Source of the DNA: an uncultured Planctomycetales bacterium
GTDB taxonomy: Bacteria; Planctomycetota; Planctomycetia; Isosphaerales; Isosphaeraceae
Length of the DNA: 64,000 bases
Direction of reading: 5' to 3'
NCBI GenBank assembly: GCA_903926465.1
Contig: CAIYJE010000145.1
Coordinates: 62,001-126,000, forward strand
Shown: in pieces, positions 36,836 to 53,142 of the stretch
Layout: each line of letters opens with the position of its first letter
Numbering within the stretch: the stretch's first letter is position 1
Program-made: the position numbers and the translations under genes
Notes under the pieces: model-generated
What the model was told of the DNA's origin: nothing
The model's input: only the letters and a program-made list of their open reading frames with translations
The model's database searches: none

Positions 36836-39409
36836 TTAGTGGTTGAACGCAAATTCGCGTGAGTTGAGCAAGGCCCAGAACAGGTCTTCGGCAACCTCGG
36901 CGATAGAACTGGCTGCGTTGAATTCGGCCACCCAGTGCACCCGTTCCTGGTTGGTGGGAGTACGGCAGAGCGTACGAAGGTAAAGGTATTCCACGATCTC
37001 GGCCGGGCTGGGTTCCAGTTCCAGCAGGTGGGCCAGGTATCCCTGTATGTGTGAGACCTTGCTATCAACCACATCGCCGCCAATCAGGAGCAGCGCCTGG
37101 CTTAGGGTGAGCTGGGGCAAGCCGATGGGTGAGCAGGTGGTGGCGCGTGAACAGCGTCCGAACGTATCGAGGATGGTGCTCGCGTTGCCGGGGTCGAAGA
37201 TCTGGATCGCCTTGGTCCGGCTGCGGGCCCTGCGATTGGCAAACACGTTTGGGACCTGGGTTGCCTGCGCGAGGGCGTCGGCCATCTGGTGGGCGGTAAG
37301 AGGGCGTGCCGATTGGTGGGAGAAGAACCGATCGTCCTGGGCGTTGCCTGGGACGGGGGCCGAGGATAGGCCGTACGCGCTGGAGGTGGCGATGGTGCGG
37401 ATGAGGGCCCTGGTGTCATAGCCCGAGGCGATGAACTGCTGTGCGAGTGCTTCTAGTAACTCGGGATGGACGGGCGGGTTGGCCGCGCTCAGGTCATCTA
37501 CCGGTTCGACCAGTCCCTTGCCAAAGAACTGGGCCCAGACCCAGTTCACGTGGGCGCGGGCAAAGAAAGGATTCTCTGGCCGGGTGATCCAGGCTGCCAG
37601 CACGGCTCTGGGATCTTGCCCAGGCTCAATTTTGACCGTGGTCCGATCGAGAGGTCTGGGGGTAACCGGTTGATGGGTTCGTGGGTGTTCCAGGGTGGCT
37701 TCCGGCTTGATACCCACCCTGGGTCGGACCGTCATCATGCCGCCGTCCCCAGGCGAACCCTTATCCACCTGCGCGAAGAAAGCGGCCAGGTTGTAATAGT
37801 CGTTCTGGGTCCAAACGTCGAACGGATGGTCGTGGCACTGGGCGCAACGCAATCTCAGACCCAGAAACCGGCGAGCCGTTAGTTCGGCCTGAGTTTGTGG
37901 GTCGATGCCATCGAGCGCGTAATTGACGGGCCCACCGGTTGCGGCCTGGGTTGGGTCGCCCACGGCGGTAAGCAGTTCGGTCACCATTTCGTTCCAGGGG
38001 CGATTCTCTTTTACCTGGCGTTGGAGCCAGCGCTGGTAGGGGCCAGCCCCAGTACCAAATTTGGCCTGACTGATTTGCAAGAGATCGCCGTATTTGAGCG
38101 TCCAGAAATCCAGGTGGTCGTCTCGGGCCAGCAGAGCATCAACCTTGCGGTCTCGCTTGTCCGGAGCATCGTCGGCCAGAAAGGCGCGGATCTCGTCTGG
38201 CTCGGGGAGTTGGCCCGTGAGGTCAAGCGACACCCTGCGCAGGTACGCTTCATCGGACGCAGGCCGGCTGGGCGGGATATTCAACCGCTGGAGCCGCTTG
38301 AGTAATTCCTGGTCGATCACATTCGCTTCACGCCCTTCCGGAAACGCGAAGGTTTGGCCGGGGTTGAATGGAGCAGCCACTCGCACCGGGACGACCAGCG
38401 ATCCATACCGCACAATCAGGTCGGTCTGGCCTGGTGCCAGCAGGCGGGCATACCCTTCCGATGAAACCGTGGCCACCCGATCATCATTGGTTTGATAGCT
38501 GGCCAGGCATGTGACGTCACGCGTTTTGCCGTCGGCCAGATGGGCCAGCACACGCAACTGCCGGGTGCCTGGGCCGTTGAGCCAGAGGGTGTTCGGTTCA
38601 ATGGTCAGGGAGGAAAGAGTTGGTCGATCTTGAACCGGGTCAGACGGGGCACCTTCGGCAATCCACTGCTTGAGAATCTTGTATCCAGGCGAGTCCGTTG
38701 TCAGTCGAAGTCCGCCGCCATGTGAGAGCCGGCCGCTGGCTTTGCTCAGGAGCAGGCTTGCATTGGGATCGAGCAGGTTCAGGCGTCGGCCCCCGTCTTG
38801 GCGGGTAATCGCCTCGGCGTCCGACGTGGCATCAAAGCCGTAAAGTGAGAGGTGGAACCCGCCCTGCCCTTCAGCCCGGGCGTGGCATCCGCCCATGTTG
38901 CAGCCGGCCCGTGTGAGAACCGGGAGAACGTCACTTTCAAAGCTCGTAACGTGGGGCTCACTCGTCCGTACTTCGATGGGCACCAAGGCTGCCGTGTCTC
39001 CCAGGTGTGCCGTCAACTGGCCCTGGCCCACACTCAGGGGCAGCACGTAGCCCGTGGGCTCGATCGTCAGCAAACTGGGGTCAGAGTTCGTCCAGCTCAC
39101 CTCGTGCGTGACATCGATGCGGTTCGTTCCCTCAACGCGTTCAACCACAAGCTGCATGCCAGGGTCGCGTAGATCTAGAGAGGCGGTTGCTGGAGAAATC
39201 TGGAGAACGGGCCGGCGGGTTGCGGCCTGACCGGGCTTGGGATTCCCCGAGGGTTGACCAGGTTCGCTCGTTGTGGCTGTGGAATGATCAGCGGGCTGAC
39301 TTACCGGCTTGTGAGCTGGCGTTGCTATGGGGCCCGAGCAGCCAATTCCAAGCAGGGCCAGACCAGTTCCAGCAACCAGGAGCACGCGTAAGCGATTGCG
39401 GAAACCCAC
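36836..39409 (-). CDS. DUF1549/DUF1553 lipoprotein with Ig-like domains and two heme motifs
   Basis: Starting at the GTG at 39409 (GAGG seven bases upstream) gives 857 residues and a clean lipoprotein signal VGFRNRLRVLLVAGTG ... GIGC with C24 as the lipid-bearing residue; a TTG at 39451 is the longer alternative. A bacterial Ig-like (BIG2) strand pattern precedes a CX4CH motif (C170-NMGG-C175-H176) typical of this subfamily, a second Ig-like domain lies at about 265-345, then DUF1549 with CAQCH (C522/C525/H526) and DUF1553. It is likely an outer-surface cytochrome. Its usual DUF1501 partner is not adjacent but lies at 29810-31147. Confidence 0.87.
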   Translation of the reverse strand: MGFRNRLRVLLVAGTGLALLGIGCSGPIATPAHKPVSQPADHSTATTSEPGQPSGNPKPGQAATRRPVLQISPATASLDLRDPGMQLVVERVEGTNRIDVTHEVSWTNSDPSLLTIEPTGYVLPLSVGQGQLTAHLGDTAALVPIEVRTSEPHVTSFESDVLPVLTRAGCNMGGCHARAEGQGGFHLSLYGFDATSDAEAITRQDGGRRLNLLDPNASLLLSKASGRLSHGGGLRLTTDSPGYKILKQWIAEGAPSDPVQDRPTLSSLTIEPNTLWLNGPGTRQLRVLAHLADGKTRDVTCLASYQTNDDRVATVSSEGYARLLAPGQTDLIVRYGSLVVPVRVAAPFNPGQTFAFPEGREANVIDQELLKRLQRLNIPPSRPASDEAYLRRVSLDLTGQLPEPDEIRAFLADDAPDKRDRKVDALLARDDHLDFWTLKYGDLLQISQAKFGTGAGPYQRWLQRQVKENRPWNEMVTELLTAVGDPTQAATGGPVNYALDGIDPQTQAELTARRFLGLRLRCAQCHDHPFDVWTQNDYYNLAAFFAQVDKGSPGDGGMMTVRPRVGIKPEATLEHPRTHQPVTPRPLDRTTVKIEPGQDPRAVLAAWITRPENPFFARAHVNWVWAQFFGKGLVEPVDDLSAANPPVHPELLEALAQQFIASGYDTRALIRTIATSSAYGLSSAPVPGNAQDDRFFSHQSARPLTAHQMADALAQATQVPNVFANRRARSRTKAIQIFDPGNASTILDTFGRCSRATTCSPIGLPQLTLSQALLLIGGDVVDSKVSHIQGYLAHLLELEPSPAEIVEYLYLRTLCRTPTNQERVHWVAEFNAASSIAEVAEDLFWALLNSREFAFNH

Positions 39410-39706
39410 TCGGCAACCTCGCGCTTCTTGACGTGGAAGTGGCAATTTCAAAGTCCGGAACGAGCACCCTTCGGATCGGGAGCCCGTATCTGGATCTGGA
39501 ACAGCCCCAGGTCAAAACTGGATCCTCTGACTGTTGTCGGAATTGATCGTACGTCTCCCCGGACCTGGTTGGCAAGACGCTTTCGGTGCCATTGCGGTGC
39601 GGTACAACCGATGACCCGCGCTCGTCCAAAAAACCCGTGTCTTGCGGGTAGGTTCCCGGCAGTGTTAAATTTCAATGATTCCTGAAACCACAATTGGACT
39701 TGATCT

Positions 39707-40392: not shown

Positions 40393-42561
40393 TCACGCTT
40401 TTGGGATGCCTGCTGGGGTGTTCCCATCCGCCACAGGCTTGGGTTCTGGCGGTTTGATGTTGGCGACGGGTCTGAACGAATCCAGGAAAAGTTCAGAGAG
40501 CCGGGCTCGCACCTGCGCCTCGTTGCCTAGTACCGACAGGGTGTAGTACCGGTTCCCAATCAGGAAGGCCCGGTTGCGAGAGAGGTTCTTGGGGCCCCCT
40601 TCTTGCTCGGCGGGAAATTGGACCTCAATCTCACGCCCAGGGGTGCCGCCCAGAGTGATCGGGCGTTCGGTGATGATCTTGGTCCGGCGCCCCTCAGAGA
40701 GGAACATCTGCCGAGAGTTATCGAGCGCCTTGGCGATCGAGGAATCTCGGGTGGGTGGGTGCTCATATTCGAAATAGGTGAGCGTGAACCGGCCCCGCTG
40801 CGGGTCTTCAATCTGATAGACCGTCTGCGTGACCTTGTTACCGTTTGGCAGTGTCAGGTCGCGTGTGGAGGTAACGGGCGTGGTGTTTGTGGGAATTGCC
40901 AGCCGGAACCCTGCGCCTGGCGGGAGGTATTCTGCCAGCCCAGCTTTGAGCTCTTCCTGGCCGGCGTTTGCCGCCGAGCTGATGGCGGCCTTGGCCAGGG
41001 CGGTTTCCGGGTTATCAGCCTCAAGGGTTCGTTTTTTGGCGAGTTCCGGCGGTGCGGTTGCGGCATACCGATCGTACGCGTCGGCATAAGATGCAAATTC
41101 GTCGTCGTCAATGTAGCGGTTGGTCAGGGCCTCGGTTTCGGCCAGCAGCTTGAGCGCGGTCGAGGTGAGTACGGGCCGTTTCTTGGTTTTCTGGGTGGTT
41201 TCCGCATCCGTTCGTAGCGTGGATAACTGATCGCTGAAGAGTGGTTTCTTGGGGAGTTTGCTGTACTGTTCCAGCAGCATCCGCACTTCGTCCCAGCTCT
41301 CAGATTTGGCCCGCGGTTCCAGCAAACTGAGCAAACGGGCCCGGGTGGCCGCCTGATCGACCACCTGGTCTCGAACGGCAATCACCTTGGATTCCAGTGC
41401 AGTGGCCTCGGATTTGGGGTCGATAATCACCGTGCGTTCGTCAACTTGTTCGCCGGGGATGATCGGGAAGTCGTCGAGCGGTTCGACGCCGGCAGCCAGC
41501 AAGCGGACCATGGCCAAGCCGTTGATGAATCGCGGTTCGAGTTCGACGCGGCCTTCGCGGTCGGTGGTGCCTACTATGCGGGGTGGTCCGTTGGGGGCCT
41601 GGCGGGCGGTTACGGTAAACCCGGCCGCCGGGCGATTTTCGGGCGGCGCGGTGATGAACCGGAGACGGGTCATGAGCGAGGTCGGCTTCACGCCAACGGC
41701 CACCACCTTGTATTTGCCACGCACCATGCGGGTCAGCGGATCACGCAAACGGCTGATGATTTCACAGATCGATTCATCCCCTTTCTGCGAATCGACTCGC
41801 AGATAGGTTCGTGGAATCGCGGTGATCTGCCTCACGGAACCGTCTGGGTTATAAATCACGCGGGCCGCGCGAAAGATGGAGTTGGGACCAACCACCCGTC
41901 CGACCGGGTTGGCGGCCAGCAACGATGAACCCTGGACCTTGATCGCGACCTTGCCCTGCGCCTGGTTACCAATTTCGGCGGTGGGTGAGAACATCCCAAG
42001 CACCAGGTTGAAGAGGGCCCTTGGCGCGTCATCCACCACACGCACGTTCTGGGTGAAAACCAGGCCCAGCAGGCCGGTTGCGGCGTCATACTCACGGCCA
42101 GAGAGCTTGAGCCCGAGCGAGCCTGTCAAGGGGGCGATTTCAATAAGCCAGGCCTTATCAAAACCTTGGGCCAGTGGAGCCACGGCCGAGGCCTGGAGCG
42201 AGCTCAATGGGGCGGAAAGCAAGGGGCCTTCCCCTTCGGCCACTTCCACTTGCCAAGGGGGGCCAACGAACCGACCGATATCTCGGGTCCAGTTCTCGAT
42301 CAGCAATCGCATACCGCGGGCATCAATGGGTGCCTGGGGCGCAGGGGCCAGCCAGGCCCGGATCTTGTACGGTTTCTGATCCAGGGGGATCGGTTTTGGC
42401 TTGGTGGTCTTGGAGGCCGTGGACTGGCCAGCGGCACCAGAACCTGCCGCAGCCGAGGTGGGTGCAGGCGTAGTTGAGCTTTGCCCGAGCACGCAGGCCG
42501 GCAACAGCAGTCCCAGAACCCATCCTAGTGCACGGCTCACCAGGGGTCTTTCGCGAACCAT
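40393..42561 (-). CDS. Large exported protein of unknown function, last gene of envelope operon
   Basis: A 722-residue protein from the ATG at 42561, chosen for GGGAGA seven bases upstream and the signal peptide that follows (RALGWVLGLLLPACVLGQ). It overlaps the upstream gene by 25 bases. The mature N-terminus is Ala/Thr/Ser-rich, then beta-rich segments (KPYKIRAWLAPAP, LIEIAPLTGSLGLKLSG) and a region like a carboxypeptidase-regulatory fold (AGFTVTARQAPNG to GREGRVELEP). The C-terminus has FTLTYFEYEHPPTRDSSIA and TLGGTPGREIEVQFP, reminiscent of lipoprotein-insertion-like beta folds, but I cannot name the family. Envelope location is inferred from the signal and operon. Confidence 0.72.
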   Translation of the reverse strand: MVRERPLVSRALGWVLGLLLPACVLGQSSTTPAPTSAAAGSGAAGQSTASKTTKPKPIPLDQKPYKIRAWLAPAPQAPIDARGMRLLIENWTRDIGRFVGPPWQVEVAEGEGPLLSAPLSSLQASAVAPLAQGFDKAWLIEIAPLTGSLGLKLSGREYDAATGLLGLVFTQNVRVVDDAPRALFNLVLGMFSPTAEIGNQAQGKVAIKVQGSSLLAANPVGRVVGPNSIFRAARVIYNPDGSVRQITAIPRTYLRVDSQKGDESICEIISRLRDPLTRMVRGKYKVVAVGVKPTSLMTRLRFITAPPENRPAAGFTVTARQAPNGPPRIVGTTDREGRVELEPRFINGLAMVRLLAAGVEPLDDFPIIPGEQVDERTVIIDPKSEATALESKVIAVRDQVVDQAATRARLLSLLEPRAKSESWDEVRMLLEQYSKLPKKPLFSDQLSTLRTDAETTQKTKKRPVLTSTALKLLAETEALTNRYIDDDEFASYADAYDRYAATAPPELAKKRTLEADNPETALAKAAISSAANAGQEELKAGLAEYLPPGAGFRLAIPTNTTPVTSTRDLTLPNGNKVTQTVYQIEDPQRGRFTLTYFEYEHPPTRDSSIAKALDNSRQMFLSEGRRTKIITERPITLGGTPGREIEVQFPAEQEGGPKNLSRNRAFLIGNRYYTLSVLGNEAQVRARLSELFLDSFRPVANIKPPEPKPVADGNTPAGIPKA

Positions 42562-45056
42562 GGCGCGATCTCCCATGTCTCGATTCCCTGGTACAGGTGG
42601 TCGGCCACCTCGGCGGGTCCCTTCAGAGACGGCCGGTAAGCGAAGTGATCGGCAAGTTGCCACAGGGGGATGATCGGCAGCTCGTCATGGCTCTCACGGT
42701 CGATGGAGATGACCAGGTTGCGAGCCTGCTCAAAGTCTGTGGCATGTTCAAGCTGGAGCAGCAGTTGCATCATCCGAGGGCTGGAGATGGCCCCCAGGCC
42801 GTCAGACTGCGGTGCGGCGTCATAACCGGGGCATAGCAGTGGGCCAATCTCCCGGATCGGCTGGTCGCAGCGACTACGGCGATACGCCAGGTCAAACCTG
42901 CGCCCTGACCGTAACCCCTCTTCAAGTTCCGACTCCGGACGCTCGATCAGGTTGATGATGAATCCCAGTGATTGAAGGACCTCGGCAATCTTCGGGACGG
43001 CAATCTGGGCCTCCGGGATGGCCGGGTACTCAAAGTTAAGCTGAATCTTGGGCATCGAAAGTTCTTTTCGCACGCCAGCCGTCAACATTCTTGCCACCAG
43101 CATGTTGAATTCCAGCGGCTCAACCCCAGGCGCATTGGCCGTGCTATCTGTCGCAAACGGACCATCTGAGGGCCGGTCGTAATCATTGAGCGGGTGCTTC
43201 AAGATCGACTCTTCAAGCAGTTTCTTGCGGTCGATGGCGTAAGAGATGGCGCGTCTGAGGTTCCGATTCTTGAGGGCGGGGTTCCGGCCATCCACCGCAA
43301 TAGCATGAAGCGAAGGTAGGCGGTACCGACCCACGGCCACTTCTCCGCCTCGGATCAACGATTGCACATGGTCAGACGGAATGTGCTCCAGCAGCGAGAT
43401 CTCTCCTCGTGCCAGTGCGCCAATGGCCGAGTTCGTATCCGGCAGGCGGATCTCACGGATCCGAGCAATTTTTGGAACCGGGACAATGGTCCGCACGGCC
43501 TCTGATTCCGAACTCCGGTCCATGGCTCGAATCAGCAATTCACGCTCAGTTTGAGATTCAAACGCATAAGGCCCGTCCCCCACCGGAATCCGACCGGTTG
43601 CGGTGGATACCCGGCCGTCCCAGGCTGCGTGTGCAGGACCGATCGGAATGGTGAGCAAGGAGACCGGGTCGAGCGGGGTCCGGCCAAGCCGGATGGCAAT
43701 CCGGTCGGCGTCCACGGTTTCAATTCGCTCTAGCAGGTCGGCCCAGCGGGCATTGTACGAGGGTGAACGCGGCTGAGCCCGATCCGACATCGCTCGGACC
43801 AGGTCAATGGACGAGATTGCCCGTGAGCCATCATTCCAGCGCAGGCCGGGCCGAATCGAGATCTCGATTCGGCGGCCCAGATCTCCCAGTTCAATATTCG
43901 CAGCAAGCTGGCCGGCTCGTTTGCCAATCTGGGCTTCTTCGCTATCATCCGCCAGCACCGGCAAATAAATCAGCGGTGTAACCCGTCCTGATGCAGACGA
44001 ATTCACCCAGGGAGCCAAGGGACGTGGTAGATCGGTTACCCCCACTTCCAGTGTGGGGTTGGCTTTGAACGCGTCCTCGAATGGGGCTACCGCTTCGTCC
44101 AGCTTGGGCCAGATTCGCAAGGCCAGCGAAAACTGATCCACGCGTTCCCCAGCCTGGGCGGCTTCCGCTCGCTTCATGGCATCGCGTGCCTTGACCTTGA
44201 ACCGCTCGGTCAAGTCGCGCGTGATTGGCCCATCGGGATCAATCAGGGCCAGTTCGTGTAGCACCTTGCGTGCGTACGAGTAAAGACCGGCCTCCAGCGA
44301 TTCCCGGATCCGGCCGCCGTAGGCATCTCCCAGGCGGTTTTGCAGGCCCTGGTATTTGGGGTTGCGGTCATAAAGTTCACGCAGAAGCCGGAGCCCCTTA
44401 TCACGCTCATTACTGGTGATGGCCCAGTTCCCTTCCTCGAATAGCATCTTGTCAATCTTCTGATTCAGCCCGTTCCAGGTAGGGTTCCGGTTCTGAACAG
44501 CCAGGTAATACTCAAATGCCTTCGGGAAATTTTTGATCAGCACCAGGCGGTCTGCTTCCGCCAGCAACATATCTTCAAAGTATTCAATTTTCTTGATACT
44601 AGACCGCTTGACCTTGTAGTCACGTTGCTCCCCTTCGGTGAGGTGGATGATCACCTCGTCCAGGCTTTCCTGGCTGGGCTGGGGTGAGGTCAGCCCCTTG
44701 GCCGACTCTTCCGGGGTGGGAGCGCGGGTACCGCTCTTTTCCTTGCTGGGGTCGAACGCGGGAAGTGGCCGAGGGCTGATCGGCTCGATCTCCAGCAGCG
44801 TATTGTCAATAAGCGTGAGCTTATCGAACGGCATCTTCTGGAGGAGTTCCAGCTCGATTGGTGGCGGTTGCGAGACTGGCGCTGCCTGGGCGGGGGCGGC
44901 CGCTGGAGATTGCTGGGGTTGAGATTGGACCGTTGCTTGGCTCAGGCCGGCCAGCACGCATACCGCCGTGAAGAGGCTGGCCAGCCAGCGCGCAAGCCCG
45001 TTCCGGCCCAGACGGGCAGTCGAGATCGGTGGTCCAGATTTGCGCAGCTCAGACAT
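42537..45056 (-). CDS. TPR-like protein fused to an ABC-type peptide-binding (SBP family 5) domain
   Basis: An 839-residue exported protein with a signal peptide (about 1-45, ending QATVQSQ). Residues about 150-310 look like TPR-type helical repeats (FPKAFEYYLAVQNRNPTWNGLNQKI, KGLRLLRELYDRNPKYQGLQNRL). From about 340 on it is a solute-binding protein family 5 (DppA/OppA) domain: EISIRPGLRWNDGSRAISSIDLVRAM, GDGPYAFES, NLRRAISYAIDRKKLL and a late DELPIIPLWQ. No ABC permease or ATPase is nearby, so the domain may work as a sensor or scaffold rather than in uptake. It overlaps the downstream gene and lies 27 bases after the FHA gene. Confidence 0.82.
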   Translation of the reverse strand: MSELRKSGPPISTARLGRNGLARWLASLFTAVCVLAGLSQATVQSQPQQSPAAAPAQAAPVSQPPPIELELLQKMPFDKLTLIDNTLLEIEPISPRPLPAFDPSKEKSGTRAPTPEESAKGLTSPQPSQESLDEVIIHLTEGEQRDYKVKRSSIKKIEYFEDMLLAEADRLVLIKNFPKAFEYYLAVQNRNPTWNGLNQKIDKMLFEEGNWAITSNERDKGLRLLRELYDRNPKYQGLQNRLGDAYGGRIRESLEAGLYSYARKVLHELALIDPDGPITRDLTERFKVKARDAMKRAEAAQAGERVDQFSLALRIWPKLDEAVAPFEDAFKANPTLEVGVTDLPRPLAPWVNSSASGRVTPLIYLPVLADDSEEAQIGKRAGQLAANIELGDLGRRIEISIRPGLRWNDGSRAISSIDLVRAMSDRAQPRSPSYNARWADLLERIETVDADRIAIRLGRTPLDPVSLLTIPIGPAHAAWDGRVSTATGRIPVGDGPYAFESQTERELLIRAMDRSSESEAVRTIVPVPKIARIREIRLPDTNSAIGALARGEISLLEHIPSDHVQSLIRGGEVAVGRYRLPSLHAIAVDGRNPALKNRNLRRAISYAIDRKKLLEESILKHPLNDYDRPSDGPFATDSTANAPGVEPLEFNMLVARMLTAGVRKELSMPKIQLNFEYPAIPEAQIAVPKIAEVLQSLGFIINLIERPESELEEGLRSGRRFDLAYRRSRCDQPIREIGPLLCPGYDAAPQSDGLGAISSPRMMQLLLQLEHATDFEQARNLVISIDRESHDELPIIPLWQLADHFAYRPSLKGPAEVADHLYQGIETWEIAPWFAKDPW

Positions 45057-45083
45057 GGGTGGTCCGGTCAGGTGGAAAAGAGA

Positions 45084-48000
45084 TCAAGGATTGGGGGTGC
45101 CGGCGGTTGGGTTGGCTTCTGTGGAACGGAGCAGGCGAACAGTACCGGGCGAGGCTGCCAGCACCACTTCGTTCCCGATCGCCCACAGGCCGCCCGCGGG
45201 CAAGATGTTCAACTCTGTGCGATCCACGGGTGTGCCGTCGGCCAGCGTGCGCTTTTGCACCACGCCGTCACGGCTGACAAACCAGAGGTTCTCTCCTTTC
45301 AACAAGGGAGGTCCCACCGGCGGCGTATCTCCCAGGTCAGAGGCCCACATCCGGTTCCCGTCTGGTCCGAAGACCATGACGCCGCCCCCCTTGTCGATGA
45401 TGACCGCATGCTTGTTATCAAACGTCATGGGCCCGACAGCCCTGGGCAGTTCCAGCGGCCACGCACCCAGCGAAGTGAGGTCCCGGGTGGAGAGAGAGCG
45501 GACCCGGTTATCGAGCGTGCTCACAACCACGGCGTCAGAGGTGGGTGCTGGGTCGGCATCCACTGTGCTCTTGAGGTCAACCGGTTCCCCAACCACGGCA
45601 AGGCGGAGTCGCGGTTCGGTGAGCCTTGCCAGGCGCCTGACCTGGCCGGCCTCGTCGGCCAGAATGACAGATTCGGACTGGAGGAAGACCGGGTTTCGCC
45701 ACCGGGTCGGCTTTTCAGCTTCAAAGGTTGGAACGTAAGGCTCGGCCTTGGCGGCTCCCGTTCTGGGATCGACCAGGTAGGCACGACCATCGAGCCCGGG
45801 CAGGAACAGGTCGCTCCCCCAGAAAACCGGGGCAGCGCCCAGCGGCGCGGGCAGGTCGACTCGCTGAAATTCGGCCGTTTTCCCCTCGCGGACCAGCAGG
45901 TGGTCAGACTCGGGAGAGGGAACCAGAATGGTCAGGCCGTCTCGTTCCAGCCGGCGGAGCGGACCTGGCGGCAGGTTGAAGTACCCAGGCCTGCGCAGGG
46001 GCATCTGGACAAACCCACCGGTCTGAAGCAGATCGGGGCTAATTGCCACCTCGGGTCCGTCGGATGCCAGGGTGGTAAGCACATTGCCTTCGGGTGAAAC
46101 CGAGGGGACCAGTGGCCAGGGGGCACCAATCACCGTCTTCCAGGCCACCTTGCCATTCGTAGGATCAACACCCCACAGCGCGATCCCCGGCCCGTCTTCG
46201 AACTGGTGGCTAAAGACCGTCAGTTTGCCGGCAACCTGAATTGGTCCCACCGCTGGCCCGGCGCGCTCAATGGTCCAGCTTGGCGTCAGTGAACCGCGTT
46301 CGACATCGAGGTCGAACCGGCCGAGCCGCGTTGCAGAGATCCAGAACTCACGATCGTTCCGGGCCCGGGCGTAGGCTGGACCGGTCGGTCGCTCATCTGG
46401 GGTGGTTGAGGTGATCAGCTTGAGCGGTTCGGCCGCATCGTCTGGTCCCATGCCAAACGCACTCACGGCATTCCGGTCGGTCAGTGACCAGAGAATCGTT
46501 CCCTGAGATGCCGGTGCCTGCCAGGTCCAGCCTGGAATCTTCACGCTCTGACGGAACCGGAGTTTTTCACCCCCGGCCTCGATCATGAAAACCTTCCAGT
46601 CTCCTTCCCAGAGTTCTCCGTTCTGGGGGATTACCAGAAAGTCTGCCAGGCGGGCCGGTGCCGCACGGATTGAGCCCGGTTTATGGCCGAGGTAGGTAGC
46701 AAACACGCATTCCGTGGGCTCACGGGAAACCACGTAGATGCAGTCTCTGTCACCGGTCACATAAAAGAACTGCCCTGCCTCGTCCGCGACCGGAGTGCCT
46801 GACAGTGGGCGGCCAAAATCGAGTGTTCCCCGGATCTCGCCGGAATTGAGGGCCAGGGTCAGCAGCTTGCCGGAAGGTGTTGCCAACACGATCTGGTTGC
46901 CCAGAATCAGTGGAGGGGTCTGGATCGCCTCGCCAATCACCTGGCGCCAGACCAGCTTGCCGGTACGCCCATCAATCATCACTAGATCATTGTAACGGGC
47001 ATCAAAGAGCAGTGCCGTCGGTGGTGTGCCGGTCACCGGAATGGGTGGGAAGGGAGACGAAAGACCTACAGGGATATGCCAGAGTGGAGCCCCGTTGGAG
47101 CCATCGAGTCCGTAGGCGTATCCCTCGGCAAGACCGAAGACCACAGGACCATCGGCGGTAGGCTGCTCGGGCTGCGCACCGGGCGGTACCAGCCGGTAGA
47201 TCAGTGAGACCGGGGGGCCAAGCGGGTCAACGTGGGGCGTGGTATCGGCCGGCCGGGTCGTGGGGTCAAAGCTGACCGCCTTGCGCACCAGTTCCGAGGC
47301 CCCTTCCAGTTGTGTCACCACCTCGCGGTCGTTCACCATATCCGGGTATTCGGCCACCAATCCATCACGGGTGGCAAATACGGTATCGGCTGAGCCCCCC
47401 TTTACAGATTCGGCCATCTTGGCAATGGCGTCTTTGCGTTTCTGGGCCTTGACCACCGCCGCGCGGGCGAGTTCGATCTTCTCGGGGAGCTTGGCTTTCT
47501 CTCGCAGCATCTTGGCTGGCGTACCGGCCACCTTTTCATGAAGCTTGAGGGCGTCTTCCGCCTCCTTGAGCGTGCCGGCGTCGGCGCGAACCCGGGCCGT
47601 TTCCGACAGCCCCTCGGCGGATGTCAGAACCTCGGCGGCAATGTCCATACGTACGTCGCGTGAAGCCGAGTCATCGCCCAGGGTTTTGAGAGCTTGCTGA
47701 ACAGCCTCAAGCGCGGTGTTCCAGGACTTGGTGCCAGGGGCTGTGAACTGCCGGATGTTGGCAAGCTGCCGTAGCGCCCGCATTCGGGGGGCACGCAGAT
47801 CGCTGGGGTTGGTGGTCAGGAACTCATCAAACTGGGCCACGGCCTGCTTGTAGTTCTTATCATCAAACGAGGCGTTGGCCTGGTAGTACTGCTTATCGGC
47901 TTTGTTCTTGGCCACAATAATTGACAGCGCGTATCCCATGATCCCCAGGAACACCAGAATTGCGGCCAGGCCGATGATCAGTGGCGAACTGATCAACTTA

Positions 48001-48590
48001 TCTTGCCCAGGCGCACCGCCAGCATTCAGTTGACGGAACAACTTCCGCCAAAGGGGAACCTTGACCGCCTTGGGAGTAGCCATTCCAACCGCCGCAACGT
48101 CGCTGGCCGTGAGCCGGGGGCCGTCCGCCGCTCGTGAGTTACTTTTGCGACCTTTCTGAACCGGCTCCGCCTCTTCTTCCTGCTCAAGATCTTCCAGGTC
48201 ATCAAACAGCCCGGATGGGGCTGCCGTGGCTGCCGGCTTGGCGGCCGGTGTTGGCTTGCGTGGCGGCTCCACGGGCTTGGCCGGTTTTGGCTTGGCGTCC
48301 GATTCATCGACCAGGAAGATCCGCATTGAGCCGATCTCAATCTCATCGCCGGCCCGGATGCTGGCGGCCGGCATCGACTGGCCGTTGATCGTCAATTCCT
48401 TGGCGTCTGGAAGCGCTTCCACCGTCCAGCGCTCGCCGCGCCGTCTCAGCCGCGCATGGAACGGCTTGGCCTCTGGATCGGAAAGTACGATCTGGCACTT
48501 AGGATCGGACCCAATCAGGGCTGGCTGGTCTCCTGCGACCGATACCACTCGGACGCGTCCTCGGCTGTCGTGCACTTCTAGCGTCGCCAT
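45084..48590 (-). CDS. FHA-domain, single-span membrane protein with PQQ-type beta-propeller
   Basis: A 1168-residue protein. Residues 1-95 form an FHA-like domain (ALIGSDPKCQIVL ... PFHARL), but it has GS rather than the canonical GR and lacks the SxxH serine, so phosphothreonine binding may be lost. A Pro/Ala/Glu-rich linker leads to one membrane span at about 203-226 (LIIGLAAILVFLGIMGYALSI). Beyond it are TPR-like helices (about 232-300), a coiled region and then a long PQQ-like beta-propeller (about 470-1150) with repeated GxxxW/Y-T/D-G strands such as DGRTGKLVWR and DPTNGKVAWK. The FHA would be cytoplasmic and the propeller outside. It is the central gene of the operon. Confidence 0.85.
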   Translation of the reverse strand: MATLEVHDSRGRVRVVSVAGDQPALIGSDPKCQIVLSDPEAKPFHARLRRRGERWTVEALPDAKELTINGQSMPAASIRAGDEIEIGSMRIFLVDESDAKPKPAKPVEPPRKPTPAAKPAATAAPSGLFDDLEDLEQEEEAEPVQKGRKSNSRAADGPRLTASDVAAVGMATPKAVKVPLWRKLFRQLNAGGAPGQDKLISSPLIIGLAAILVFLGIMGYALSIIVAKNKADKQYYQANASFDDKNYKQAVAQFDEFLTTNPSDLRAPRMRALRQLANIRQFTAPGTKSWNTALEAVQQALKTLGDDSASRDVRMDIAAEVLTSAEGLSETARVRADAGTLKEAEDALKLHEKVAGTPAKMLREKAKLPEKIELARAAVVKAQKRKDAIAKMAESVKGGSADTVFATRDGLVAEYPDMVNDREVVTQLEGASELVRKAVSFDPTTRPADTTPHVDPLGPPVSLIYRLVPPGAQPEQPTADGPVVFGLAEGYAYGLDGSNGAPLWHIPVGLSSPFPPIPVTGTPPTALLFDARYNDLVMIDGRTGKLVWRQVIGEAIQTPPLILGNQIVLATPSGKLLTLALNSGEIRGTLDFGRPLSGTPVADEAGQFFYVTGDRDCIYVVSREPTECVFATYLGHKPGSIRAAPARLADFLVIPQNGELWEGDWKVFMIEAGGEKLRFRQSVKIPGWTWQAPASQGTILWSLTDRNAVSAFGMGPDDAAEPLKLITSTTPDERPTGPAYARARNDREFWISATRLGRFDLDVERGSLTPSWTIERAGPAVGPIQVAGKLTVFSHQFEDGPGIALWGVDPTNGKVAWKTVIGAPWPLVPSVSPEGNVLTTLASDGPEVAISPDLLQTGGFVQMPLRRPGYFNLPPGPLRRLERDGLTILVPSPESDHLLVREGKTAEFQRVDLPAPLGAAPVFWGSDLFLPGLDGRAYLVDPRTGAAKAEPYVPTFEAEKPTRWRNPVFLQSESVILADEAGQVRRLARLTEPRLRLAVVGEPVDLKSTVDADPAPTSDAVVVSTLDNRVRSLSTRDLTSLGAWPLELPRAVGPMTFDNKHAVIIDKGGGVMVFGPDGNRMWASDLGDTPPVGPPLLKGENLWFVSRDGVVQKRTLADGTPVDRTELNILPAGGLWAIGNEVVLAASPGTVRLLRSTEANPTAGTPNP

Positions 48591-48730
48591 TCACGATCCC
48601 CCGGACGGTTAGCCACCTCTTGCCTGGATCCGATCACCGAAGTTCGCCATTGACCACGCAATTTGAAACGCGGCGAATTCGGTTGGGCTCAAGCCCTTGA
48701 GTCAAGTCAGTCGCGATGCATGTTAGACGG

Positions 48731-49795
48731 TTATTGACGGAGCGGCTCCTGTGAGACCACACGGAACTCGTAGCCGTTGCCAACCTGGGTGGCCTGGAAC
48801 CGCGTGCTGCGGATCTGGGCCGGCTGGCGTCCGGCGTACCGGACCTCGAGTTGCGAAAGGGCGTCCTCAATATCGGCTGGGTAGAACTGGAAGATCGGCC
48901 GGTTACCAACCTGGATATTCGCGCGCTGGAGAAGGGTCATGTCGACGGACTTTCTCCCCTGTCCTTGCCAGATGAAGAAGAGCCGTTTATCGGCTTTGGC
49001 CAGCCCGGTACGCCTTGAGGGAGAGCCTGCGAAGTTGGTGGCGTACTCAATGCTGCTTGTGCCAGAGGGTACACCAAGTTCGATCTTGAAGAAGTCAAGC
49101 TGCTTGGCGTATTCGTCGACCGTTTGACCAGGGGCGAATACAATCACCCAGCGCTGTTCGCGGGAAACGCCGCCATCTCCAGGGCCGCCGCCAAAGCCGT
49201 AGCCAATGGGCGAATTGCCCATCTTTGATGAGCGCCGACCGCTTGCAACGGGACCGGCGTTCGGCAAGGCCTCGGCCATGTCGACCTCGGAGGTCTGGTT
49301 GGGCGGGGTCTCCACGAAGGCGTCAATCACGACTTGGTTGGTGGTTTCCACCTGCGGTTCTTCGAACTCGGAGGCTTCTTCCATGTTGTTCGAGGCAAAC
49401 TTTTCGGGCGTTCCACCGGCTACATTCACTTCGGCCCGGGCACTTGGGTCCACATCGGTCGATCCACCCGTGCCGCCTACGACTTCGATGACCTCAATCC
49501 GAGATGGTGGAGCCTGAGCGTAAGAACGTTCGGTGATCAGGCGGATGAACATCCAGCCAACAAAGAAGACGGTAGCCACGATGACCGACAACATCATGGA
49601 CGATGTTCGGTCGATCTGGGATTCGCCATAGATCTTGGGAACGGTCGGAACCTCAGGCGGTGTGGCGGTGTTCCCCTTGTCTGAGGTGAGGCGCTCGCCG
49701 GCGTTTCCCTCGGCCATCAGAGCTGCGCTCAGACTTGGGTCTGGGGCCTGTTCACGATCGCTTCGCAGCGGTTCGGGTGGGGTTGGAGAACTCAT
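48731..49795 (-). CDS. Single-span membrane protein of unknown family, TonB-like layout
   Basis: A 354-residue protein whose charged, Pro-rich cytoplasmic N-terminus (about 1-65) is followed by one membrane span (MMLSVIVATVFFVGWMFIRLI, about 67-87), a disordered Pro/Glu/Asn-rich linker (about 95-190), a Gly-rich turn (GYGFGGGPGDGG) and a folded C-terminal domain with RWVIVFAPGQTVDEYAKQLDF and KRLFFIWQGQGR. The layout resembles TonB-type linkers, but no TonB signature is present, so no function is assigned. Its start overlaps the upstream gene (ATGA), so translation is coupled. Confidence 0.72.
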   Translation of the reverse strand: MSSPTPPEPLRSDREQAPDPSLSAALMAEGNAGERLTSDKGNTATPPEVPTVPKIYGESQIDRTSSMMLSVIVATVFFVGWMFIRLITERSYAQAPPSRIEVIEVVGGTGGSTDVDPSARAEVNVAGGTPEKFASNNMEEASEFEEPQVETTNQVVIDAFVETPPNQTSEVDMAEALPNAGPVASGRRSSKMGNSPIGYGFGGGPGDGGVSREQRWVIVFAPGQTVDEYAKQLDFFKIELGVPSGTSSIEYATNFAGSPSRRTGLAKADKRLFFIWQGQGRKSVDMTLLQRANIQVGNRPIFQFYPADIEDALSQLEVRYAGRQPAQIRSTRFQATQVGNGYEFRVVSQEPLRQ

Positions 49796-51495
49796 GGCTT
49801 CCGCCCTTCCTCCGGGGCGGTTGACTTCTGGTCGTCGTCCGAGTCAGATTCCTCTTTGAGAGCGGTGGAACCGGCAACGCGGCCCACGCCGGAAAGCAAA
49901 GAGGCATCATCGAGGGCTTCCAGGCCTGGTGGACGCACCAGTTCGAACCAGTCACGCCAGCGTCTGGCGGCAGCCAGCCGTTCTTCAGGTGTGGAACCGC
50001 GAGGTGGGCCGTATCCTTCAAGCTTTCGGCTCATCACTTCCAGGCTCACGCGTGCCTCGGCCGAGACCCCTTCGTCGGGATCAAGCAGAGCGCGGATCAG
50101 GGCGGGTGCCAGGTCAAGATCGCCCATGCGGCCCAGGGCCCAGCAGGCCACGCGGCGGATACCAGGATCACGGTCCATCAAGAGCTTGAGGAAGCGATCT
50201 TTGAGCGGGCGGAGCACGCTGGGTCCGTCTTTGCTGAACCGGTCCAAGAGTCCAGCCAAGGCTGAGTCAATGTCTGCGCTCCGTGGATCTTCCAGAACGG
50301 CCATCATCCCCTCGACTGCGCCATTCATGGGCCGGACCACAATGCGACCCTGGGCGACGGTCATGTTGTTCAAGTCTTCGGGTAGGCCTCGGCCGCCGAG
50401 CAATGTGCCTGCGCCCAGTTTGCGGATGTCGATTTTGCGGACCGATTTTGCGGTCGCTCTTACCAGGTAGAGAATGGCCCAGGATGTCTTGGGTACCAGC
50501 CCCTGGGCGCCGTCACCGCTAGACCACTGGCCAGAACTGTCCTGGTGCTGGAGGAACCAGTTAAATCCTCCGTCATACCAACCGGGCATGTTCCGGATCT
50601 CCCCCTTCTCCGAAAATGCCCCGACTCGTTCCATACCATAAAGGCCGTACGAGGCCGATTGCCCCATCCTGGGTGATTCCCCAGGAGCGTAATTATTGGC
50701 GAGCCAGGAAATGCCTCGATTCACAGCGGCGTTGATGGCAACCGTTGAGGAGGCGGGCTTGAACTTGGGAGTAGACCCCTCTACCACCAGTGGAGTGAGA
50801 AGGGGATGGGAGGAGTCGGCCCCCTTACGGTACTGGGCCAGCAGACGCTGGCAAAGTAGCAAACTGCCAACTCCGGCGGCCGTCATGGAAACCGTGGGTG
50901 ACCAGTTTGCCTGGTCTGGGTGGTAACTCCAGCCGCCATCTCCGGCCTGGACAGACATGAACCACATGGCGGCGGCGTCAAAGACTCGTGGTGGGATTTC
51001 CACGCCAATACCGTCAGCTTCCCAAAGTCCAAGCAACGCAAACTGAGAGACCGAGCAGTCACCGGCCGTTCGTTCGTCATAATCCCAGGAACCGTTGGGC
51101 TTTTGCCGAGAGATCAGATATCCGGCCGCAGCTTGCACCTGGGGTTTGAACCCGATGGGGTCAACGTTGGCCAAGGCCATACAAACGCAGCCGGCTTCGT
51201 AGAGGGATTTCTCGTTCCGTTCTTCAGGGGTAAAGCCCTGGTCCGAGAATCGGGAGAGAACTTTCTGAAGGAACGCCTGGAGGTCTGGATCATTATCCGG
51301 AACGTCAGACTTGTTCATGGCCAGCACGGCCAGCGCTGCCTGGCCGGCGGTAACATTCCGCGTATTCTGGCGAAGGAAAGTGATCCCCCGGGCAATCGAG
51401 GGATTCGCCTGCTCTCGCTGGGCTTGGGCCTGAAGCGGCGAAGCATCGACGAGCAAACCCAGGGCCAAGAGCGAAATGAGCAGCGTGCGGGTCAC
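49792..51495 (-). CDS. Exported prenyltransferase/squalene-oxidase-repeat protein with HEAT repeats
   Basis: A 567-residue protein from the GTG at 51495 (GGAGT nine bases upstream), which starts directly at a signal peptide (RTLLISLLALGLLVDASPLQAQA). An alpha/alpha-toroid of squalene-cyclase-like repeats follows: QKPNGSWDYDE, QAGDGGWSYHPD, QDSSGQWSSGDG, each with the QxxxGxW motif. No catalytic DxDD of cyclases is seen, so it is probably a binding toroid. The last part has HEAT repeats (RDPGIRRVACWALGRMGDLDLAPALIRALL). A Glu/Asp/Ser-rich tail overlaps the next gene. It is the first of the tightly linked envelope genes. Confidence 0.83.
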   Translation of the reverse strand: MTRTLLISLLALGLLVDASPLQAQAQREQANPSIARGITFLRQNTRNVTAGQAALAVLAMNKSDVPDNDPDLQAFLQKVLSRFSDQGFTPEERNEKSLYEAGCVCMALANVDPIGFKPQVQAAAGYLISRQKPNGSWDYDERTAGDCSVSQFALLGLWEADGIGVEIPPRVFDAAAMWFMSVQAGDGGWSYHPDQANWSPTVSMTAAGVGSLLLCQRLLAQYRKGADSSHPLLTPLVVEGSTPKFKPASSTVAINAAVNRGISWLANNYAPGESPRMGQSASYGLYGMERVGAFSEKGEIRNMPGWYDGGFNWFLQHQDSSGQWSSGDGAQGLVPKTSWAILYLVRATAKSVRKIDIRKLGAGTLLGGRGLPEDLNNMTVAQGRIVVRPMNGAVEGMMAVLEDPRSADIDSALAGLLDRFSKDGPSVLRPLKDRFLKLLMDRDPGIRRVACWALGRMGDLDLAPALIRALLDPDEGVSAEARVSLEVMSRKLEGYGPPRGSTPEERLAAARRWRDWFELVRPPGLEALDDASLLSGVGRVAGSTALKEESDSDDDQKSTAPEEGRKP

Positions 51496-51593
51496 GGATT
51501 CGCCACTCCAGAATGGCCAGGCGAGAAAGTGTGGATTCACATTTTGATTCTATCGCCATCGCTTGGCCAAGGCGAGCATTCGATGGTCGGTTC

Positions 51594-52475
51594 TCAAGGC
51601 TTTTGCAGCGGGCGGATTTCGATCTTGCGGAACAGGATTTCCGCCCCCTCAGACTGGAACTGGAGCTTGCCACGGGTCTGGTTCGCGCCGCGTCCTTGGT
51701 TCACCACCACGCCGTTGACCAGGTAGGTCAGTGTATCTCCCAGAGCGATCACTTCCATGGTATTCCACTCGCCGGCGGGCTTTTCAACGTCTCGTTTGCC
51801 GCGAGTGCCGAGAACGTCCTTCCATTCAGGGTCTCGGCCCCACCAGTTGAAGCGGCCGCTATCGCGAGTATCGGGCTTGCCGTTCGGGTCAAAATAGGGC
51901 TGGCCGTCGGCCCCAATTCGCGTATTCACGGTCAGCCTTGGCTTTTCCTTCTCCTTGCCGGCCACCATCAGGATGTCTCCACAGCCCCCTTCAATGATCT
52001 GGCACTCCAGTGACTGCATCCACATGCCGCCCACGGCACCGTCTGGACCCACACAGTGCAGCAAGATTCCAGAATCTCGAGAGGCGGCCTCACGCGGGGG
52101 CCAGGTCTTGCCGCCCCACTTCCATTCCACGATCAGTTGATAATCAGAGAATTCACCCACGGTTGTCACGGCGCCATAGTCCTGACCAGAGATCCGCAGC
52201 ACCCCGTCTTGCACGGTGAACACCCGGTTTGGATCGCTGGTGCCATGCCCCTGAAGATAGGTGGTGAAGCCGGTCAGATCCTTGCCGTTGAACTTCAGAA
52301 CCGGGTCACCGGTTTTGACCTCCGGACGCAACCGGTTGAACACGGTCAGATCTTCGGTTTGCTGGGCCGGTGCTGGTTCGACCAGGCTCATCAAAGAAAG
52401 GCTCAAAATGGCGAGCCCCGTGGCGTGGAATCGTCGGATTCTGGTGGACGGTTGATTCCTGAGACCTGAATTCAT
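51594..52475 (-). CDS. DUF1080 (3-keto-disaccharide-hydrolase-like) exported protein
   Basis: A 293-residue exported protein with a signal peptide (about 1-37, ending PAPAQ). The DUF1080 domain shows the family features: PVLKFNGKDLTGFTTYLQG, VQDGVLRISGQDYGAVTTV, YQLIVEWKWG, SRDSGILLHCVGPDG and a late GKLQFQSEGAEILFRKIEIRPL. Its concanavalin-like fold is related to glycoside-binding and 3-keto-glycoside hydrolases; the substrate is unknown. It lies 98 bases upstream of the toroid gene on the same strand and is probably the second gene of the operon. Confidence 0.87.
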   Translation of the reverse strand: MNSGLRNQPSTRIRRFHATGLAILSLSLMSLVEPAPAQQTEDLTVFNRLRPEVKTGDPVLKFNGKDLTGFTTYLQGHGTSDPNRVFTVQDGVLRISGQDYGAVTTVGEFSDYQLIVEWKWGGKTWPPREAASRDSGILLHCVGPDGAVGGMWMQSLECQIIEGGCGDILMVAGKEKEKPRLTVNTRIGADGQPYFDPNGKPDTRDSGRFNWWGRDPEWKDVLGTRGKRDVEKPAGEWNTMEVIALGDTLTYLVNGVVVNQGRGANQTRGKLQFQSEGAEILFRKIEIRPLQKP

Positions 52476-52489
52476 GGCTGTGGACCTTC

Positions 52490-52792
52490 TTATAACGCTG
52501 TTGGCGAGGGGGGGGCTGATTCCCGTTTCACCAGGGTTGCCCCCTGGGACCGGCAGATCGTTTCAACTTTGTCGGCCAGAACCGGGTCGGGGCACCCAAT
52601 GGCCAGTACCATCCCGCGCTGATCTGGCAGATTTTCGGGGGGCAAAATCCCGAGCTGATCACTCCGAATCCCGATTTGAAGCAACCACTGGATCACTCCG
52701 TTGGCCAGCGTGGCGTACGGAAAAAATGCCACGATTCGTGGTCCCATGTACGGGGCAGACGCTTTTCCGGGTCGGATCAGAGGGGTGGGCAT
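52490..52792 (-). CDS. Small conserved-looking protein of unknown function
   Basis: About 100 residues from the ATG at 52792; a start at 52870 adds 26 residues of low-complexity sequence. The core reads GPRIVAFFPYATLANGVIQWLLQIGI, then LGILPPENLPDQRGMVLAIGCPDP and VETICRSQGATLV, an alternating beta/alpha pattern like a small ferredoxin-like domain. The stop lies 15 bases before the DUF1080 gene. No known family. Confidence 0.62.
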   Translation of the reverse strand: MPTPLIRPGKASAPYMGPRIVAFFPYATLANGVIQWLLQIGIRSDQLGILPPENLPDQRGMVLAIGCPDPVLADKVETICRSQGATLVKRESAPPSPTAL

Positions 52793-53142
52793 GGGTGCAA
52801 ATTCGCTCTTGGTTTCGAGCGGGTGAATTCTCGATTGCCACCTGATAGGAGGCCTGGCCGTGATGATCATGTTATCGTCCCGGAAGTCGGCCAGATTCGC
52901 AAGCAGCACCCGTGAAAGAGGGTAGAGGCTGGTTCATGGATCGGTGGATTCTTCCCGAGTTGCTCCTGGAGATGGTGCGTGTTTCGCATCCCGAATTGCC
53001 GGCCTGCGACCCAAGCAATGGTTGAGGCAATGCCGCCCAGGACTGCGTATGCGAGCCTGGAGGCAACGGCTACAATTCAGGCAGGATTTGACCTCGCACG
53101 GCTCACCGGGCAGCTTGAGTCCGGATCGGCAATGGATTTTCG

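Follow-up and report, generated by a model that had tools for sequence, protein, structure and literature searches.

A class-wide gene set of the Planctomycetia that probably forms a motor-driven trans-envelope system

The window, a 64,000-nucleotide stretch of DNA from a member of the Isosphaeraceae, carries a minus-strand operon whose genes probably encode most of the parts, the motor excepted, of a trans-envelope force system distributed across the class Planctomycetia. This system would be driven by the proton motive force and would be Tol/Ton-like in function while belonging to neither. Comparable motor-driven systems are already on record (Tol, Ton, Agl-Glt and those with vWA transducers), but the present gene set and its transducer domain match none of them. 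Planctomycetes have an outer membrane and an unusual mode of division, and how that membrane is energised without a recognisable TolB or TonB is a standing question; a near-universal, single-copy, motor-linked gene set is a concrete candidate for the task, and one that can be deleted. It would also give the 5:2 motors a further class of transducer, next to TolA/TonB and to the vWA type that was reported in 2025.

Gene content of the window operon

All seven open reading frames called on the minus strand were confirmed within 40393-52909. The consecutive gaps from gene 1 to gene 7 are 14, 53, -4, 140, 27 and -25 bases, and the very short spacing described in an earlier note on this DNA is correct except for the 140 bases between the bitopic and FHA genes. 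The 4-base overlap of the toroid and bitopic genes (ATGA at 49792) is confirmed. The 25-base overlap of the last two genes, and the 722-residue product of the last, hold with the ATG at 42561 as start, while the longest-ORF start would give -127. Promoter- and terminator-like sites, which the note had named as a check, occur within the operon at the level of shuffled sequence, and neither support nor break it.

The products were annotated with Pfam and NCBIfam. Gene 1 (52490..52792) encodes an uncharacterised protein of ~100 aa with no family match in either collection, and gene 2 (51594..52475) an exported 3-keto-disaccharide hydrolase (DUF1080; PF06439, E 1.9e-30). They are a conserved pair immediately 5' of the toroid gene. 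As this pair is seen in the Isosphaeraceae only, genes 1 and 2 are probably not part of the core. The toroid gene (TOR, 49792..51540), found upstream of the bitopic gene across families, specifies an exported protein described before as squalene-cyclase-like with HEAT repeats; HEAT_2 is matched (E 1.9e-7), while the SQHop cyclase matches are sub-threshold (0.0023). The bitopic protein (BIT, 48731..49795) has a single span, a disordered linker and a folded C-terminal domain (~210-352). Beyond the 140-base gap (48591..48730) lies the FHA gene (45084..48590), the product of which is, as previously described, an FHA-TM-propeller protein: a cytoplasmic FHA-like domain (YscD_cpl 1.2e-12, FHA 6.8e-10), one span, a TPR-like stretch and a large PQQ/BamB-like beta-propeller region (PQQ_2/BamB 6.2e-15). 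SBP (42537..45056), kept between FHA and EXP, is exported and carries a family-5 solute-binding domain (SBP_bac_5, PF00496, E 1.2e-22); the TPR-like part once ascribed to it is not seen by Pfam. The last core gene, EXP (40393..42561), encodes an exported protein which, like BIT, is without any Pfam or NCBIfam family match in the window. By hydropathy, clear internal spans occur in only two of the seven products, with one strong hydrophobic span each in BIT (69-87) and in the FHA protein (204-222).

Conservation across the class and the missing motor

The FHA/propeller protein is present in 50 of 59 relatives, usually as a single copy, and these include other families of the class. When the neighbourhoods around its gene were compared in 40 genomes, the order toroid - bitopic - FHA - SBP - exported protein recurred across the class, which excludes chance linkage. 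The genes are not scattered in related genomes, an outcome that the earlier note had said would count against its idea of a conserved envelope system, and that idea is upheld: judged by gene order, the five genes (toroid, bitopic, FHA-TM-propeller, SBP and exported) are one conserved unit.

The commonest form of the operon is longer than that of the window, and reads toroid - bitopic - ExbB - ExbD - ExbD2 - FHA/propeller - SBP - exported protein, ExbD2 being the longer of the two ExbDs. In the first set of loci, ExbB, ExbD and ExbD2 lie between the bitopic and FHA genes in 12 of 12 non-Isosphaeraceae loci with a bitopic gene, and the distance from BIT to FHA is 1952-2369 bases in these motor-bearing loci vs -59 to 234 in the Isosphaeraceae. 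The 140-base gap of the window is informative, since it is the very position taken by the motor trio in most other families. A second set, of named genomes, was fetched by the bitopic protein alone, without selection for the motor, and the 75 loci with enough downstream sequence were scored. BIT-ExbB-ExbD-ExbD are directly consecutive in 53 of them; in the remainder BIT is followed directly by FHA (11 loci), by an ExbD (2), by a second BIT (1) or by nothing recognised (8). The 53 motor-bearing loci, some of which are cut by contig or locus ends, continue to FHA in 47 cases, to SBP in 39 and to EXP in 33. Blastopirellula marina DSM 3645 (L224) has the intact operon; in Thalassoglobus neptunius KOR42 (L209) it is intact from the bitopic gene onward. 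At two loci (L052:11486-15358 and L053:4157-8001) the toroid-bitopic-motor part is absent, and a sigma-factor-like gene and a gene for a membrane protein of 988-1086 aa are found directly upstream of FHA-SBP-EXP.

Several ExbB and ExbD genes occur in every one of the 44 relatives searched. Each Isosphaeraceae genome examined (that of the window and 13 others) has one cluster with the make-up ExbB-ExbD-ExbD2, assigned, like the trio in the operon, by matches to PF01618 and PF02472. In all of them it lies away from the BIT locus; it is found at G000:C20:23205-25680 (L112) in the window genome, and ~1.5 Mb from the operon in the closed genome of the closest relative (G159). A maximum-likelihood tree of 74 ExbBs places the operon and detached sequences in one clade (support 100/99) that excludes 45 generic ExbBs. 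The proton-carrying Asp is present in 168 of 168 ExbDs in which the pattern is readable, is visible in most of the others, and is kept in both ExbD spans of the window genome (AMVDVIF and AMADVAF). On this sequence evidence the detached trio of the Isosphaeraceae is the cognate motor of the window operon. One further family (f79) shows another split, with BIT-ExbB-ExbD-ExbD2 together and FHA-SBP-EXP elsewhere; between them, the two splits tie BIT to both halves, as it stays with one or the other. The operon is an example of one that has been split, and the window read alone hides its engine. The absence of energy genes reported in the earlier note is true of the window only, and the deduction that the system is not of TonB type for want of a motor does not hold, given that an ExbB-ExbD-ExbD2 trio is part of the operon in most other families and is encoded elsewhere in the genome here.

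Genome searches with a nine-sequence BIT alignment found the protein in 218 of 249 genomes of the class (196 of the 223 good ones), nearly always as a single copy. In a sample of the phylum, 21 of 294 genomes have BIT, and these are genomes of Planctomycetia only. With E. coli, Caulobacter and Bacteroides as positive controls, the TolB_N model matched none of 44 relatives and TonB_C matched four, the window genome not among them. TolB_N was matched in 9 of the 294 phylum genomes, all weakly and none within the class, so that a clean mutual exclusion with BIT was not obtained. A literature search of limited coverage found no description of the operon, and the main text of a transposon study of Planctopirus limnophila (PMC10632474) does not name ExbB or MotA.

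The putative transducer and its partners

In TonB, the membrane span has a Ser four residues ahead of a His. The divergent BITs of two families (f78 and f98), with SLASCLIHG and SSLVLHG as examples of their spans, again place a Ser four residues before the His, and at one locus (L250) BITs of this type stand directly before ExbB-ExbD-ExbD-FHA. Because these divergent relatives carry the TonB/TolA Ser-x3-His in the membrane helix, BIT is probably a force transducer. None of 113 operon-type BITs has a His within the span; a TonB/TolA-like docking of these proteins on the motor is a proposal, and the lack of the His counts against the explanation favoured here. In force transducers, an SHLS motif with its motor-binding His has been described (PMC12204202). 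At eight loci of families f78 and f97 (L244-L247, L251-L253 and L255), stand-alone divergent bitopic proteins share the BIT C-terminal domain, the rest of the operon not being nearby, and several of them have a span of the TonB/TolA Ser-x3-His type.

Structure prediction had been proposed in the earlier note, and AF2 models of BIT and EXP were examined. In the first, a helix occupies residues 60-93 and is joined by a low-confidence linker to a C-terminal domain mostly with pLDDT over 90. Compared with the PDB (Foldseek/VIA), this domain gave no match above noise (best Z 3.6), which is not proof of a new fold, and PDB sequences searched with BIT and EXP profiles yielded nothing convincing. In the EXP model (pLDDT 83.9), residues ~61-291 have a FlgT-like (3w1e, E 8e-8, Z 9.0) and TolB-N-like (7mx5, E 6e-6, Z 8.6) fold, the Z scores being from VIA; these are followed by an Ig/CnaB-like domain (~293-384), a helical region and a PsbP/Mog1/DcrB-like C-terminal domain (~536-700; PsbP Z 14.3, VIA). 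This last domain is lineage-limited, as in the alignment only the window and two relatives have it. All EXP members were also compared with Pfam at E 5, with chance matches only.

In all 39 FHA-bearing members the pThr-binding Arg of the GR motif of the FHA domain is replaced by S, T or A, and in none of them is there a Ser at the SxxH position. Other families lack the FHA domain and have a different N-terminal stretch instead. At seven loci (L045, L047, L048, L051, L054, L224 and L228) this is a helical stretch of LTKYQA type at the start of the propeller protein, and it resembles the N-terminus of an adjoining Ser/Thr kinase (L045:15472-16869). The heads of ExbD2 also vary. A CxxC...CxxC zinc ribbon is found in 55 of 69 long ExbDs, and in the Isosphaeraceae the head is GYF_2-like, a weak Pfam match (E 0.034) with the pattern visible by eye in nearly all. 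In 12 loci, a Ser/Thr kinase is fused to ExbD2 (L213: Pkinase, E 2.1e-51, plus ExbD). These loci (L194, L195, L198, L202, L204, L213-L216, L222, L223 and L226) belong to one lineage and show HRDIKPEN and DFG motifs.

Proposed mechanism, related systems and alternatives

In the mechanism we favour, an ExbB pentamer and an axle of two different ExbDs would form a proton-driven 5:2 motor, similar to MotAB, ExbBD and TolQR in having cognate ExbB- and ExbD-family genes and an Asp in the ExbD span. BIT would dock on this motor and pass force through its disordered linker to the periplasmic C-terminal domain. The FHA-TM-TPR-propeller protein may serve as an inner-membrane scaffold, and the toroid, SBP-like and FlgT/TolB-N-like exported proteins as receivers in the periplasm or on the outer-membrane side. 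It is probable that the motor is regulated by the cytoplasmic heads of ExbD2, which are GYF-like in the Isosphaeraceae and a zinc ribbon or a Ser/Thr kinase in other groups. The most likely role, far less certain than the machine itself, would be to energise maintenance of, or transport at, the outer membrane in bacteria with no recognisable TolB and, for the most part, no TonB; among the operon genes, neither an outer-membrane barrel nor a Pal-like protein was noticed. The machine may do jobs done elsewhere by Tol and Ton. Whether it is a Planctomycetia-wide replacement of Tol-Pal, and often of Ton, with a new class of transducer, an unrecognised C-terminal fold and an ExbD2 with interchangeable regulatory heads, is a larger claim, which we regard as possible though somewhat doubtful.

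Tol-Pal is similar in its ExbB/TolQ-like and ExbD/TolR-like motor, its single-span transducer topology, the TolB-N-like fold of an exported protein and the presence of a propeller. Here, however, there are two different ExbDs and no TolB_N sequence match, and the propeller belongs to a membrane-anchored FHA protein, whereas TolB has N-domain and propeller in one protein. The C-terminus of BIT is not recognised as TolA (no Pfam match, no convincing PDB fold match), and the TolA/TonB Ser-His motif occurs in divergent families but not in operon-type spans. Ton shares the kind of motor and, with divergent BITs, the Ser-x3-His span; BIT has no TonB_C, operon-type BITs have no His, and no receptor was noticed in the core operon. 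Members of the PVC group, planctomycetes included, have a vWA force transducer gene next to tolQ, two different tolR genes and one TPR gene (PMC12204202), which is a point of similarity. In contrast to those transducers, BIT has no VWA Pfam match, its predicted secondary structure is not the alternating vWA pattern, the His of SHLS is missing from operon-type BITs, and the gene set differs. Ring proteins of the SctD/YscD type resemble the FHA protein in a degenerate FHA-like cytoplasmic domain followed by one span, and YscD_cpl is its better-scoring Pfam match, but the periplasmic part here is TPR-like with a propeller rather than ring-building modules, and no secretion genes were noticed.

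A rather unlikely alternative is Ton-like import, in which the SBP-like protein and the toroid would bind large nutrients and the motor open an outer-membrane transporter. The SBP_bac_5 domain, the link between motor and operon and the absence of TonB from 40 of 44 relatives would suit this, yet no permease, ATPase or TonB-dependent receptor was noticed in the conserved core. The SBP domain goes with the motor operon and not with an ABC transporter; its conserved neighbourhood differs in this from that of an ABC peptide importer. Near-universal presence as a single copy suits a housekeeping function more than a specific uptake system. The same breadth of occurrence, in nearly all Planctomycetia genomes, makes it quite improbable that this is gliding or surface machinery, and members of the class are largely not known to glide. 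The Myxococcus Agl-Glt machinery is nevertheless alike in outline: one TolQ-like and two TolR-like proteins (AglR/Q/S), an FHA-TM protein (GltG) and TPR proteins (PMC3169522), and the zinc-ribbon and GYF-like domains of ExbD2 would also fit. This is a comparison of part lists, not of phylogeny, and GltG has a TonB C-terminus, in place of which the FHA protein here has a propeller, accompanied by a toroid and an SBP.

Two further readings concern the parts of the window operon. The five genes of the Isosphaeraceae could be a motor-less scaffold or sensor, with the detached trio serving another system, as its lack of linkage in every Isosphaeraceae genome examined and the absence of His from the BIT span might suggest. 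We hold this to be distinctly unlikely: detached and operon ExbBs are one clade with 45 others outside it, five-gene operon and trio are retained in the same genomes, and an unsystematic look noticed no other conserved partner genes beside the trio. Lastly, a relay in which the FHA domain senses kinase activity and signals outward, as the earlier note proposed, has an FHA-like domain and, in one lineage, an ExbD2-Ser/Thr kinase in its favour. That fusion lies in a lineage other than that of the window; with both pThr-binding residues missing from 39 of 39 FHA-bearing members and an N-terminal domain in other families that is not FHA, such a relay is highly improbable.

Downstream of the operon, at 36836-39451, the window encodes a DUF1549/DUF1553 protein with Big_2 domains. 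A gene of this kind recurs downstream, in most cases separated from the operon by a single gene, at eight other Isosphaeraceae loci (L060, L061, L063, L066, L068, L070, L073 and L075).
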